From the NCBI RefSeq assembly GCF_028864145.1, contig NZ_JARBHJ010000032.1, forward strand, positions 1-32,112: a DNA stretch of 32,112 nt. Reading direction: 5' to 3'. A model generated the notes under the pieces. That model made no database searches. It saw nothing but the letters and a program-made list of their open reading frames with translations, and was not told the origin of the DNA. Below, in pieces: positions 1 through 32,112 of the stretch. Origin of the DNA: Actinotignum schaalii. GTDB taxonomy: Bacteria; Actinomycetota; Actinomycetes; Actinomycetales; Actinomycetaceae. Each line of letters starts with the position of its first letter. Within the stretch, counting starts at the first letter, position 1. The position numbers and the translations under genes are program-made.

Positions 1-1197
<1,197 letters not shown>

Positions 1198-27492: not shown

Positions 27493-27608
27493 CGTGGTCA
27501 AGCCGAAACCCACGGTATTGACGTGCCAATAGTGGATGAGTTTTCCGTTCTGCCAGTAGGCTTAGGGAAGTTGATCGTTGCTGGCGAGATACCCGGAAAG
27601 GGAATGTG

Positions 27609-28706
27609 ATGAGCACTCAGATGCACCCAAACGATAATCTCACTACTGTTCAGAGAAGCGTGGAGAGCAAAGTCCAGGTATCTGGCCAGGATATTCCGGT
27701 GGAATCGAATGCTTTGGATGCTCAGCGAGAATCAACGCGCAGCGTAAACGCTTTCGATGAGCTGCTCGCCGAATACCGGGATTTATCCGATTCGGTACGT
27801 GCGCAAGGCAACTTGTTTGAGCAACTCATCCGCTCATATCTTCTCAAAGACTCGCAGATGAGCCGCCAATTTGGCGCGGTGTATCTGTGGCGTGACTGGC
27901 CCGGGCGGGCCGGACGGCCCGATACCGGCATTGATCTGGTTGCAATCGATATCGAAGACATGCCCGAAGATGGCAGCGAACCAGACGCGCATACACCGGC
28001 CGTAGCTATCCAATGTAAGTTCTACGAGCAGGGCCGTACCATCAGTAAGGCCCAGCTTGATTCTTTCCTTGCGGACTCGGGTAAAGAACCCTTCAAGCGC
28101 CGGATTTTCGTGGAAACCACGGGTGTGCCCTGGGGAGCTAATGCAGAAGATGCGATCCGAGGCCAGAGCAAACCCGTCACTCGTATCGGCCTTACCGATT
28201 TGCGTAACTCCGATATTGACTGGAGCACATATTCTTTCGCGAAACCTTCCGAAACTCCGCAGCTCAAGCCGCGTAAAACGCTGCGGGACCATCAGGTCAA
28301 CGCGATTCGTGATGTGTTTACCGGCTTCCAGGATCATGATCGCGGAACTTTGGTTATGGCTTGTGGAACGGGTAAAACATTTACGGCTCTGAAAATAGCC
28401 GAACGGCTCACCGATGATTTGGGCGGGAGCGCCCGGATCATGTTCATGGTTCCCTCCCTCGCGCTGATGAGCCAGACCTTGAATGAGTGGGCTGCTGAAG
28501 TTCAAGTTCCGTTCTCCGCCTGGAGTGTGTGCTCAGATACGAAAGTGAACCGGAAACGCCAGGAGCGCCAGGACGTGGCGGATATCGCGATGGTGGACTT
28601 GAAAACTCCGCCAACAACCAAGCCGGCCACCCTTGCCGCATCCTTGATTAAGCACGCGGGGGGGGGGTGGACTCCAGGTAATCTTCGCGACGTATCAGAG
28701 CATTGA
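27609..28706 (+). CDS. Type ISP restriction-modification enzyme, N-terminal part (frame broken at poly-G)
   Basis: First part of a single-chain restriction-modification protein of the LlaGI/LlaBIII class. Residues 60-210 are an Mrr-like nuclease: E71 in NLFEQLIRS, D109 in GIDLVA and QCK at 135-137. From about 222 (KTLRDHQVNAIRDV) an SF2 helicase/translocase domain begins, with Walker A ACGTGKTF at 251-258 and MVPSLALMSQTLNEW as motif Ia. A run of ten G (28658-28667) then changes frame, and the peptide ends after a few unrelated residues. In the next frame the domain continues directly with VIFATYQSIDIVHQAQE. The start ATG 27609 has AAGGGA upstream; GTG 27606 is an alternative. Base composition looks less GC-rich than the flanking core genes, consistent with acquisition. 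Confidence 0.9.
   Translation: MSTQMHPNDNLTTVQRSVESKVQVSGQDIPVESNALDAQRESTRSVNAFDELLAEYRDLSDSVRAQGNLFEQLIRSYLLKDSQMSRQFGAVYLWRDWPGRAGRPDTGIDLVAIDIEDMPEDGSEPDAHTPAVAIQCKFYEQGRTISKAQLDSFLADSGKEPFKRRIFVETTGVPWGANAEDAIRGQSKPVTRIGLTDLRNSDIDWSTYSFAKPSETPQLKPRKTLRDHQVNAIRDVFTGFQDHDRGTLVMACGTGKTFTALKIAERLTDDLGGSARIMFMVPSLALMSQTLNEWAAEVQVPFSAWSVCSDTKVNRKRQERQDVADIAMVDLKTPPTTKPATLAASLIKHAGGGWTPGNLRDVSEH
28658..28667. repeat. Poly-G tract (10 G), candidate phase-variation switch
   Basis: Ten consecutive G between codons for KHA and the helicase strand VIFATYQS. With nine (or twelve) G the reading frame runs through as HA-GGGG-LQVIFATYQS and joins both halves of the gene. With ten it is out of frame. 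Confidence 0.95.
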
Positions 28707-31700
28707 TATCGTTCACCAGGCCCAAGAGTTGGCCGGTAATGATTGGCGTGATTTCGATCTGATTATTTGCGATGAAGCCCACCGCACCACCGGCGTCACC
28801 CTCACCGGGGAAGATGAATCCTATTTCACCCGCGTTCACAATAACGACTACCTGCGGGCTGATAAACGCTTGTATATGACCGCCACCCCGAAGATTTTTA
28901 ATCCGAAAGTTAAAGACGCGGCGAAAGAAAAAGATGCAGTCCTCGCCTCTATGGACGATGTCGCGTTGTTCGGCCCGGTCTTCCACCGCCTCGGGTTCGG
29001 AACTGCGGTGAGCTTGGGTCTGCTCACCGATTACAAAGTTGTTGTTCTGGCGATCCCAGAAGACCAAGTCACCCCGATCTACCAACAGGGCGCCACCTAC
29101 GGGGAGCTTCCGCTACCTGAGACAGCGAAACTGGTGGGATGTTGGAACGCGCTTGCTAAACGTAAAAGCGGTTTCACGGACATCCAGTACGGAAGTGATA
29201 CGACGCCGATGCACCGGGCGGTTGCCTTCGCGAAGGATATTAAAACCTCCAAGCAGATCGCATCTGAGTTCCCGGAGCTCGTCAATAAGCATTTGCGAAA
29301 CCTCATGAATAATGAGGTCAGTGATGACCTGGGTGTTCAGTGCCGTCATGTTGATGGAACGATGAATGCCATTGAGCGCGGGGAAGCTCTTGATTGGCTG
29401 AAAACAGATGTGGAGAGTGAACATCCGGTCTGCCGGATTCTCACTAACGCGCGCTGCCTTTCCGAGGGGGTAGACGTGCCGACCTTGGACGCGGTGTTGT
29501 TCTTGAATCCGCGCCGCTCTCAAGTGGATGTGATCCAGGCCGTTGGCCGGGTCATGCGTAAGGCTGAAGGAAAAGAATTCGGGTATATTATCCTCCCCGT
29601 TGCGGTTCCTGCTGGGACGACACCGGAGGATTCCCTCAGCGATAACCAGCGTTACGCGGTTGTATGGCAGGTACTCCAAGCTATCCGCGCCCACGATGAA
29701 GATTTTGAAGCCAAGCTGAACGCTAGCCAATACAACGGCACGCTCCCGGAAAACATCATCGTTGACTACGTTGACCTCAAACCCGCACCAAAGGTTGATC
29801 CGTTCTCTGGAAGCGCTGGAGGCGATGACACTGAAGTTATTGATGGTGGTTCGGGCTCCGGGCCCGGGGGCGAATCCGATAGCCGTCAAATGCAGTTGGA
29901 GCTCTTCCTCCAGGCCAACGAATGGAAGGATGCTGTCTACTCGAAAATCGTGAAGAAGGTTGGGGACCGGCTGTATTGGGACGACTGGAGCAAGGATATC
30001 GGTGATATTGCAAGCCGCTATATCAACCTAATCGAACAGCTTCTGGAAGACCCGATCAATCAGGATTACTTCACGTCTTTCGTTACGGCCCTGCAGAAAA
30101 CCCTCAATCCGGCAGTGGACGGGGCGCAGGCGGTTGAAATGCTAGCTCAGCATCTGATCACGAAGCCTTTGTTCGACGCGATGTTCCCCTCTCAGGAATT
30201 CACTTCCCAGAACCCGGTGAGCCAGGCCATGCAGAACATTTTGGACCGGCTCGCCACCAATAAGGTGTTCGAGACTGAGCGCGAGCCGTTGGCTAAGTTT
30301 TATGACGCAATGACGCAAAAGATCCGTGCTGTCACAACGCTTGACGGCAAGCAGGAGATCATGCGTACCCTTTACGACAAGTTCTTCGCGAAAGCATTCC
30401 CGTCTATGCAAGACCGCCTGGGCATCGTCTTCACGCCTGTCCCGGTGGTGGACTATATCTTGCGCTCGGCTGACGTGGCACTGCGCCGTCATCTAGGGAA
30501 AAGTTTAGGGGATGAGGGGATCTCCATTATCGAACCCTTCCTGGGTACGGGTACCTTCATAACCAGGCTCCTGCAATCTGGCCTCATTAAGCCTGAGCAG
30601 TTGGAACGTAAGTACTTGCGGGAAATTTTCGCTAACGAAATCGTGCTGCTCAGCTACTACATTGCTTCTATCAATATCGAAGAGGTCTATCGCCAGATTC
30701 GGATTGAGCAAGGTGCGGGGGATGAGTACGTGGAATTCCCTGGCCTCAGCTTGACGGACACGTTCCAAATTCACGAAGAAGAAAACCGATTTGACGAGGT
30801 GGGGGACTTCGCTGCCAATATGGAGCGCGTCGCGCGCCAAAAAGAAGCGAAAATACGCGTTGTGGTGATGAACCCGCCTTACTCTGCCGGGCAGAAGAGC
30901 GCGAACGATAACAACCAAAACCTGAAATATGCATTCTTGGATAAGCAGATCGAAAGCTCGTATGCCGCTAGATCAACGGGAACCAATAAAAACAGCCTCT
31001 ATGACTCCTACTACCGGGCTTTGCGGTGGGCAACTGACCGTATCGGCCCCGAGGGTGTCATCGCTTTTGTTTCAAACTCCAGTTTTATCGACGGCAATAC
31101 CGCGGACGGAGTACGTCTGAGTTTGGTTGAGGAGTTCTCTGATATTTACGTTTATAACCTGAAGGGGAATCAACGTACTCAAGGGGAGCGCTCTCGCCAG
31201 GAAGGCGGAAAGATTTTTGGTAGCGGATCGAGAACCGGGGTCGCTATTACTGTTCTCGTCAAAACTTCCGATAAGTCCGGCCCGTGCAAGATTCATTATG
31301 CCGAGATTGCTGATTATCTGGCCCGGCAAGAAAAACTCGATGTCTTGAGCGAAGAGAACTCGATTGCTGGCACCGATTTCGAGGTCATTACCCCGAATAG
31401 TCACGGCGACTGGATCAACCAGCGTGACGATAGGTACCTTACTTACCAGCCGATTGGAGACAAAGTCACTAAGGGCAAAACAGATACGCTTGGCTTGTTC
31501 ATCCAGTATTCGCGTGGTCTTGCCACTGCCCGGGACGCATGGTGCTACAACTTCTCGAAGCCCGCCGTCGCTGAGAATATGCAGCGCATGATCTCTAACT
31601 ACAACACCGAGGTTCAGGAATCTAGAACTTCAGGAGATGCTAACGGAGACCCAACGCGCATCTCATGGAACCGGCAGTTGTACAGGGACTTGGATAAACG

Positions 31701-32106
31701 TAAGTTGCATATTTTCCGTTCAGAATCGGTACGTTCTGCTATCTACCGTCCCTTCTGCAAACAGGCGGTTTACTTTGATCGGTCAATGAATGACATGATC
31801 TACCAGCTTCCGCATATTTTCCCCACACCGGCCCAACCGAATCTGACGGTGGGACTAAACGGAACCGGGATGTCTAAAGAGTTCGCGGTTTATATGTCGG
31901 ATACCTTGCCTGATGTTCAGCTCATGCCTAATGGTCAGCAATTCCCCCTCTACACCTGGGAACACGTCACCGATAATGACCCTCAAGGTTCACTTCTTGA
32001 GGGTCAAGTCCTGGTTAGTGGTGTATCTGTGTTCTCGAATCATGATTGTCATTGTCTGGTTTCGATACTAATAAGGACTGGATATCAGACACAGGTCAAG
32101 CAATAA
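28666..32106 (+). CDS. Type ISP restriction-modification enzyme, helicase/methyltransferase part (C-terminus abnormal)
   Basis: Continuation of the same enzyme in the next frame, open from 28648; the first possible start after the tract is TTG 28729. Visible are Walker B/DEAH (nt 28771-28782, ICDEAHRTTG), YMTATPK, motif VI-like QAVGRVMRK with FGYIILPV, a coupler of several hundred residues, then an N6-adenine methyltransferase with motif I PFLGTGTF (nt 30535-30558) and catalytic NPPY (nt 30871-30882). The target-recognition region begins near 31100 and matches the family to QQFPLYTWEHV and NDPQGSLL. After about nt 32000 the sequence (VLVSGVSVFSNHDCHCL and onward) no longer resembles it, and TAA comes at 32104. 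Known enzymes run to about 1570 residues, so roughly a hundred or more are missing. Confidence 0.88.
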   Translation, partial: GGLQVIFATYQSIDIVHQAQELAGNDWRDFDLIICDEAHRTTGVTLTGEDESYFTRVHNNDYLRADKRLYMTATPKIFNPKVKDAAKEKDAVLASMDDVALFGPVFHRLGFGTAVSLGLLTDYKVVVLAIPEDQVTPIYQQGATYGELPLPETAKLVGCWNALAKRKSGFTDIQYGSDTTPMHRAVAFAKDIKTSKQIASEFPELVNKHLRNLMNNEVSDDLGVQCRHVDGTMNAIERGEALDWLKTDVESEHPVCRILTNARCLSEGVDVPTLDAVLFLNPRRSQVDVIQAVGRVMRKAEGKEFGYIILPVAVPAGTTPEDSLSDNQRYAVVWQVLQAIRAHDEDFEAKLNASQYNGTLPENIIVDYVDLKPAPKVDPFSGSAGGDDTEVIDGGSGSGPGGESDSRQMQLELFLQANEWKDAVYSKIVKKVGDRLYWDDWSKDIGDIASRYINLIEQLLEDPINQDYFTSFVTALQKTLNPAVDGAQAVEMLAQHLITKPLFDAMFPSQEFTSQNPVSQAMQNILDRLATNKVFETEREPLAKFYDAMTQKIRAVTTLDGKQEIMRTLYDKFFAKAFPSMQDRLGIVFTPVPVVDYILRSADVALRRHLGKSLGDEGISIIEPFLGTGTFITRLLQSGLIKPEQLERKYLREIFANEIVLLSYYIASINIEEVYRQIRIEQGAGDEYVEFPGLSLTDTFQIHEEENRFDEVGDFAANMERVARQKEAKIRVVVMNPPYSAGQKSANDNNQNLKYAFLDKQIESSYAARSTGTNKNSLYDSYYRALRWATDRIGPEGVIAFVSNSSFIDGNTADGVRLSLVEEFSDIYVYNLKGNQRTQGERSRQEGGKIFGSGSRTGVAITVLVKTSDKSGPCKIHYAEIADYLARQEKLDVLSEENSIAGTDFEVITPNSHGDWINQRDDRYLTYQPIGDKVTKGKTDTLGLFIQYSRGLATARDAWCYNFSKPAVAENMQRMISNYNTEVQESRTSGDANGDPTRISWNRQLYRDLDKRKLHIFRSESVRSAIYRPFCKQAVYFDRSMNDMIYQLPHIFPTPAQPNLTVGLNGTGMSKEFAVYMSDTLPDVQLMPNGQQFPLYTWEHVTDNDPQGSLLEGQVLVSGVSVFSNHDCHCLVSILIRTGYQTQVKQ
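31977..32006. repeat. Perfect 11-bp inverted repeat at the point where the R-M gene diverges
   Basis: TGACCCTCAAG (31977-31987) and CTTGAGGGTCA (31996-32006) flank an 8-base loop. The left arm still encodes family-typical NDPQG; sequence after the right arm does not match the enzyme. Confidence 0.9.
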
Positions 32107-32112
32107 TTTCCT
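32007..32112. other. Unrecognised, less GC-rich sequence at the window edge
   Basis: The last 106 bases read on as a nonhomologous tail of the R-M frame. All three plus-strand frames were inspected for the expected C-terminus and none shows it. The stretch may be the end of an insertion element or recombined DNA, but no transposase or known terminal repeat can be named. Confidence 0.5.

Follow-up and report, generated by a model that had tools for sequence, protein, structure and literature searches.

Homopolymer runs that break a reading frame can mark a switch, a dying gene or a faulty assembly. Which of these applies is the question raised by an isolate of Actinotignum schaalii, in which exactly ten G at positions 28658-28667 shift the frame of a single-chain restriction-modification gene. 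The window that we analysed spans all 32112 bases of contig C25 in the draft assembly of genome G000, which has 77 contigs. From sequence comparison, we conclude that the ten-G run is very probably a phase-variation tract, that the gene around it is of Type ISP, the restriction-modification type built as a single polypeptide, and that this assembly captured an off length.

The ten-G run and the split gene

The first open reading frame of the gene (27606-28706, 366 aa) stops 12 codons past the run. Beyond the run, the gene continues in another frame that is open to 32106, and the two frames lie one base apart. The exact count and the ORF and frame analysis agree with the original prediction that ten G breaks the frame, and its arithmetic, in which nine G would restore it, was right. 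As in a contingency gene, a long run within coding sequence changes the frame. Overlapping matches to ten G number 41 in the window, one from the run and 40 from a stretch of 49 C where the contig begins (57-105); the mean in the shuffled window is 0.40. A promoter scan upstream of the gene returned no promoter-like sites, and two terminator-like sites versus 1.5 expected.

The 5' part of the gene (27609-28706, forward strand) runs from an ATG at 27609, with a GTG at 27606 as another possible start, to the stop after the frame break. It encodes an Mrr-like nuclease and the first half of a helicase-like ATPase (Pfam Mrr_cat_2, 4.3e-34; ResIII, 6.8e-15; motifs DTGIDLVA, QCKF and GTGKT), with the Mrr_cat_2 domain at 27849-28247 (forward strand; residues 82-214 of the 366-aa ORF). 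The remainder of the gene up to an inserted element (28668-32001, forward strand) encodes the second ATPase half, a coupler, an N6-adenine methyltransferase and the start of a specificity domain (Pfam ResIII; Helicase_C; ISP_coupler, 1.8e-40; Eco57I; Type_ISP_C, 2e-39, positions 2-160 of 342; motifs DEAH, TATP, QAVGRVMR, FLGTG and NPPY). The partial Type_ISP_C domain lies at 31495-31980 (forward strand), and the C-terminal rest of the gene is found at G000:C39:105-857. All eight catalytic motif patterns that were sought are present. In the helicase-like domain, the run itself falls between the Walker A motif (GTGKT) and DEAH. There it occupies a Gly-rich loop directly before a conserved ATYQS stretch; the original prediction, too, had a Gly-rich loop ahead of the DEAH box.

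An intact relative of the gene (L079) matches the structure of LlaBIII (PDB 4xqk) almost end to end, and the gene's relatives match both LlaBIII and LlaGI (PDB 5ffj). The domains, the motifs and the LlaBIII match of L079 identify the gene as one for a Type ISP restriction-modification enzyme, as predicted: the Mrr-like nuclease, SF2 ATPase, coupler, N6-adenine methyltransferase and C-terminal specificity domain all belong to one gene, and in the A. schaalii isolate the chain is split by both the run and an insertion sequence (IS). Enzymes of this type methylate one strand of an asymmetric site and cleave upon the collision of translocating enzymes from two unmodified sites (PMC11842806, in the part of the text available).

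The run in A. sanguinis and a second lesion in A. schaalii

Among named relatives of the gene, the nearest belongs to Actinotignum sanguinis DSM 26039 (L009/L077; 89% identical protein). It has the same ten G, with 200-base flanks that are each 98.5% identical, and no other break. Since this is a separate assembly, the run is not a one-off assembly error. Both Actinotignum copies are ten G; between the two copies compared, no length change is seen at this site.

In the A. schaalii isolate, an IS256-family element has inserted into the specificity domain at 32001/32002. Its left end fills 32002-32112 and the contig ends within the element. The 9-bp target-site duplication, CTTCTTGAG, lies at 31993-32001, with its second copy at G000:C39:111-119, and is found once at the matching place in A. 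sanguinis. The last 111 bases of the window have six copies in this genome, every copy at a contig end; as these bases are IS, we rejected 32106 as the true end of the gene. Another Actinotignum genome (G054) has copies of the element with both ends matched; the copy at L175:1501-2965 is ~1465 bases long, and the transposase is 438 aa (NCBIfam transpos_IS256, 8.9e-98; Pfam Transposase_mut, 8.7e-130). Contig C39 opens with the right end of the element, after which comes the missing C-terminal part of the gene, 93% identical to A. sanguinis.

Because the insertion interrupts the specificity domain, the gene of the A. schaalii isolate is, as assembled, off at any run length, and the run alone cannot switch it on. 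In staphylococci, IS256 is itself known to act as a reversible switch through its insertion and excision (cited in PMC6346686). A gene that is otherwise intact, so that a length change would give product, is found in A. sanguinis and, owing to the IS, not in this isolate. The insertion argues against a working switch in the A. schaalii isolate, not in the lineage, where a switch is still supported because A. sanguinis has the same run in an otherwise open gene. The original prediction had said that a fixed ten G with other inactivating mutations would refute it. This is nearly the state of the A. schaalii isolate, with its IS, but not that of A. sanguinis.

DNA similarity to A. sanguinis is largely lost within the specificity domain, at 31606-31941 (one 78% stretch), and is back to 95% at 31942, as if the recognition specificity had been exchanged.

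G and C runs in Type ISP genes of the Actinomycetaceae

A Type ISP match was found in 37 of 213 genomes of the family, and all 37 were examined. Thirteen have a G or C run of at least nine inside the gene. The rest comprise one gene with a run of seven (G044), 15 that are full-length, open and run-free, and eight that are partial or otherwise broken and run-free. From each genome's own run density, 0.69 genomes with a run of at least nine would be expected. The estimate takes genome sizes as rounded values, sets the gene at 5 kb in each of the 37 and counts 91 runs for G000; it is conservative because these 91 runs are inflated. The probability of 13 or more is 7e-16 if the genomes are treated as independent, which the 13 are not, and that of five or more, counting the five sites alone, is 3e-4.

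The runs occur at five places in the gene, numbered here on the L079 protein. Site A (~250), between Walker A and motif Ia, is where the run lies in nine genomes, eight from the genus g3 and a ninth from the genus g11. Two of these runs, both of 10, are in frame; six (9, 11, 10, 11, 10 and 9) break the frame; and the run of 7 in G044, whose relatives carry 9-11 there, is again in frame. Site B (~328) is that of Actinotignum, the run at 28658-28667. Site C (~735) is a run of ten G in Trueperella bonasi (G194), out of frame in the linker before the coupler; site D (~575) is a run of ten C in G166, in frame in the second helicase-like domain; and site E (~1437) is a run of eleven G in G133, out of frame in the specificity domain of a gene with another frame break. 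On a quick gene tree six changes are required, an approximate number given that the outgroup does not form one side of a branch and that long branches meet. The tree has 34 rows, 31 of the 37 family genomes and three outgroup rows; G046, G070, G081, G157, G161 and G200 were omitted as too partial.

Of the 13 run-bearing genes, three keep their frame across the run (G012, G031 and G166, each with a run of ten) and ten are out of frame, near the one in three of random lengths. Comparison with relatives gave ten G in both copies at site B, and at site A lengths of 7, 9, 10 and 11 among close relatives with the flanks kept, as expected of contingency genes. Several of these genomes may be long-read assemblies, prone to one-base errors in G runs; such errors would weaken one-base differences, not the presence of the runs or a difference such as 8 versus 13, seen in the genus (below).

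Outside the family, no G or C run of at least eight was found in the gene at any of 66 loci, 49 of them near full length. These loci comprise 40 of 47 from one search, with family taken from the record title (some titles of metagenome-assembled genomes (MAGs) name no family), and 26 of the 38 matching non-family genomes; two of them, L031 and L045, have a middle stretch in common. The longest A/T run among the 66 is A9, in the Type ISP gene of a gammaproteobacterial MAG (L036:7653-7661). When viral contigs were searched for further copies, one distant relative (50%) was found, and no exact match to a site-A flank.

Two observations concern the surroundings of these genes. Near the Trueperella bonasi Type ISP locus, outside the gene, there is a run of 19 G (L019:11287-11305). 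In G195, from the same genus as T. bonasi, a 48.6-kb insert (G195:C1:1712836-1761437; L208-L210) interrupts the Type ISP gene at methyltransferase motif I. The insert encodes two serine recombinases and carries a phage tail gene; Type I HsdR and HsdM genes lie at its edge. A similar end sequence lies at methyltransferase motif I in G070 (L211), with HsdR and HsdM genes alongside, and perhaps in G157 (L212). The G195 insert would appear to be an element that landed in one restriction gene and brought another.

Selection past the run and gene decay

Between A. schaalii and A. sanguinis, dN/dS is 0.026 before the run (349 codons, three non-synonymous changes), 0.094 after it (931 codons), and 0.174 over the 1101 codons up to the insertion, where the specificity domain diverges. 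For the G037/G026 pair, both out of frame, dN/dS is 0.26 with zero stops in ~1460 codons. The six site-A pairs give 0.16-0.34, mostly above the two run-free pairs (0.17 each). On these values, the DNA past the run is still under purifying selection as protein, with slight signs of relaxation in the run-bearing genes. The frame past the run is thus kept by selection, as in a contingency gene.

This result bears on the possibility that the run is just the first lesion of a gene being lost, since G runs grow freely in dead genes. Second lesions point that way: besides the IS256-family insertion in the A. schaalii isolate, G017 is without a large part of the gene, G133 and G031 have further frame breaks, and the G007 gene lies across two contigs. 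Judged by these lesions, some run-bearing genes are decaying. The eight partial or otherwise broken run-free copies in the family, and the somewhat higher dN/dS of most site-A pairs, fit loss as well. However, six genes (A. sanguinis, T. bonasi G194, G037, G026, G051 and G088) are broken at the run alone, selection continues past it, and G012, G031 and G166 carry runs of ten that leave the gene in frame. We therefore consider simple gene loss unlikely, and phase variation the better account of the run.

Other runs in the genus Actinotignum

Homologous run groups in four Actinotignum genomes differ in length in 10 of 11 cases. The groups, formed by flanks, draw on all runs of at least nine in G052 (12), G054 (8) and G053 (13), plus 12 of the 106 runs of at least eight in G000; of 20 G000 stretches, nine (L065, L066, L068-L074) were discarded as G/C-rich junk or as near contig ends. 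Some groups contain two copies from G053, and the flanks of one (12/10) are merely 75-82% alike. The clearest case is a methylase-specificity fusion gene, with G10 in frame in G000 (L061; G000:C44 ~18027) and G11 out of frame in G054 (L157; G054:C1 ~724827; N6_Mtase and Methylase_S in L157), whose 200+200 flanking bases are 100% identical. It would be a second, cleaner phase-variable restriction gene.

Other runs precede or fall inside what, by eye, is the signal-peptide region of long surface-type proteins. These proteins have Rib or FIVAR domains or else anchor-like motifs, which score under the curated cut-offs. In one such group the lengths are 8, 9, 10, 11 and 13. One-base differences among the run groups could partly be sequencing error; the wider spread is not easily explained so. 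The surface-type genes with G or C runs near the 5' end are L141, L151, L152, L154, L169-L171, L063, L067, L142, L159, L162 and L149, and in the grouped ones the lengths vary between Actinotignum species. In G053, G/C runs also coincide with or closely precede the start of two further genes, one for a HicA-like toxin and one for a KAP NTPase (L164, L165).

These length differences tell against programmed transcriptional slippage or ribosomal frameshifting at the run, by which a ten-G gene would constantly yield some full-length enzyme. In its favour, both Actinotignum copies carry ten G, and the protein frame is conserved before the run as well as after it. Yet a dedicated slippage site should keep one length, and site A has in-frame and out-of-frame lengths whilst nearly all the genus run groups change; we hold this explanation to be very improbable.

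Poly-C or poly-G of up to ~90 bases stands at many G000 contig ends, including window positions 57-105, and is most likely sequencing junk. We rejected the same reading for 28658-28667; it fits many of those listed among the 106 runs of at least eight in G000, not this one. Although such contig ends show that the assembly contains junk, an artefact of two-colour Illumina poly-G or of long-read homopolymer error has scarcely any credibility for a run that sits inside a contig with continuous coding sequence around it, has the same length in another assembly and, at site A, has counterparts in five single-contig genomes (G017, G026, G037, G051 and G088).

Phase variation as first proposed for this gene thus draws support from the family comparison, from selection and from the runs of the genus, and is tempered by the IS256-family insertion in the A. 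schaalii isolate, which the original prediction had missed. More broadly, we think it probable that Type ISP enzymes of the Actinomycetaceae have repeatedly become phase-variable, through five separate G/C runs at five places, and that in Actinotignum a poly-G contingency programme spans the whole genus and switches surface proteins along with restriction enzymes.

Discussion

In the simplest account, slipped-strand replication errors at the run would add or remove bases, so that the whole enzyme, a single chain of nuclease, translocase, methyltransferase and specificity domain, would either be made or not be made. Out of frame, translation would stop 12 residues past the run and leave a fragment of ~366 aa, with the nuclease and half of the helicase-like domain, that should neither translocate nor methylate. 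Switching would be reversible, and might be used against phages or for population-level differences in methylation. The earlier expectation that self-restriction is avoided would hold in one direction. On switching off, nuclease and methyltransferase would be lost together, which would make this step safe; on switching on, a new enzyme would meet an unmodified chromosome, and presumably this is the risky step.

LlaBIII and LlaGI have the same single-chain domain order as the gene described here, which differs in its frame-breaking G run; we know of no phase variation of either enzyme. The best-known phase-variable restriction genes are those of Proteobacteria and Campylobacterota. In Type III mod and Type I hsd systems, the phasevarions, repeats or recombination switch methylation and with it the expression of many genes; methyltransferase and nuclease are separate subunits there. 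Type IIG enzymes have no helicase-like translocase, and the PglX chain has neither nuclease nor translocase.

As far as the accessible portions of the sources go, several of these systems resemble what we propose. A phasevarion also switches methylation (PMC12707154). The Type IIG gene cj0031 of Campylobacter jejuni, a host from a different phylum, is likewise a restriction-modification gene switched by a repeat tract, and its switching changed the expression of 219 genes and phage resistance; it is phase-variable in few of the strains that hold it, like the Type ISP gene in the Actinomycetaceae (PMC8355987). Closer in taxonomy is pglX of the Pgl (BREX type 2) system of Streptomyces coelicolor, also an actinobacterial phage-defence N6-adenine methyltransferase gene with a G tract, for which high-frequency phase variation was measured: the tract reportedly goes from 8 to 7 G and back, and Pgl switches at 10^-2 to 10^-4 (PMC4365076). 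PglX differs as a methyltransferase that works with PglW, PglY and PglZ (PMC4365076).

Closer in enzyme type are HP0667-HP0669 and JHP0612-0613 of Helicobacter pylori, Type ISP genes with frameshifts that are figured alongside putative phase-variable genes; the methyltransferase part, HP0669, is active alone (PMC3936762, from the available excerpt). However, that excerpt describes the HP0667-HP0669 frameshifts as not arising from sequence repeats and terms that of JHP0612-0613 an authentic frameshift (PMC3936762).

Our literature search, in which most subscription journals lay outside coverage and sources were available in part, turned up neither a Type ISP enzyme that varies in phase through a homopolymer run nor a paper naming phase variation in Actinotignum. 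This agrees with the original prediction, whose author knew of no well-described phase-variable Type ISP enzyme in actinobacteria, with the qualification that a G-tract switch is known in an actinobacterium, in pglX (PMC4365076, as far as its available text extends). Contingency-gene logic is thus already known from pglX and from other restriction types. What would be new is its presence in Type ISP genes, where we found it undescribed, and its repeated independent origin would be the striking part.

If the reading is true, the repeated independent birth of the switch would show that all-or-none switching is selected for when one chain holds both nuclease and methyltransferase. These genes would offer natural material for asking how cells survive switching from off to on, and the G runs in surface-type genes of Actinotignum would matter for work on the genus.
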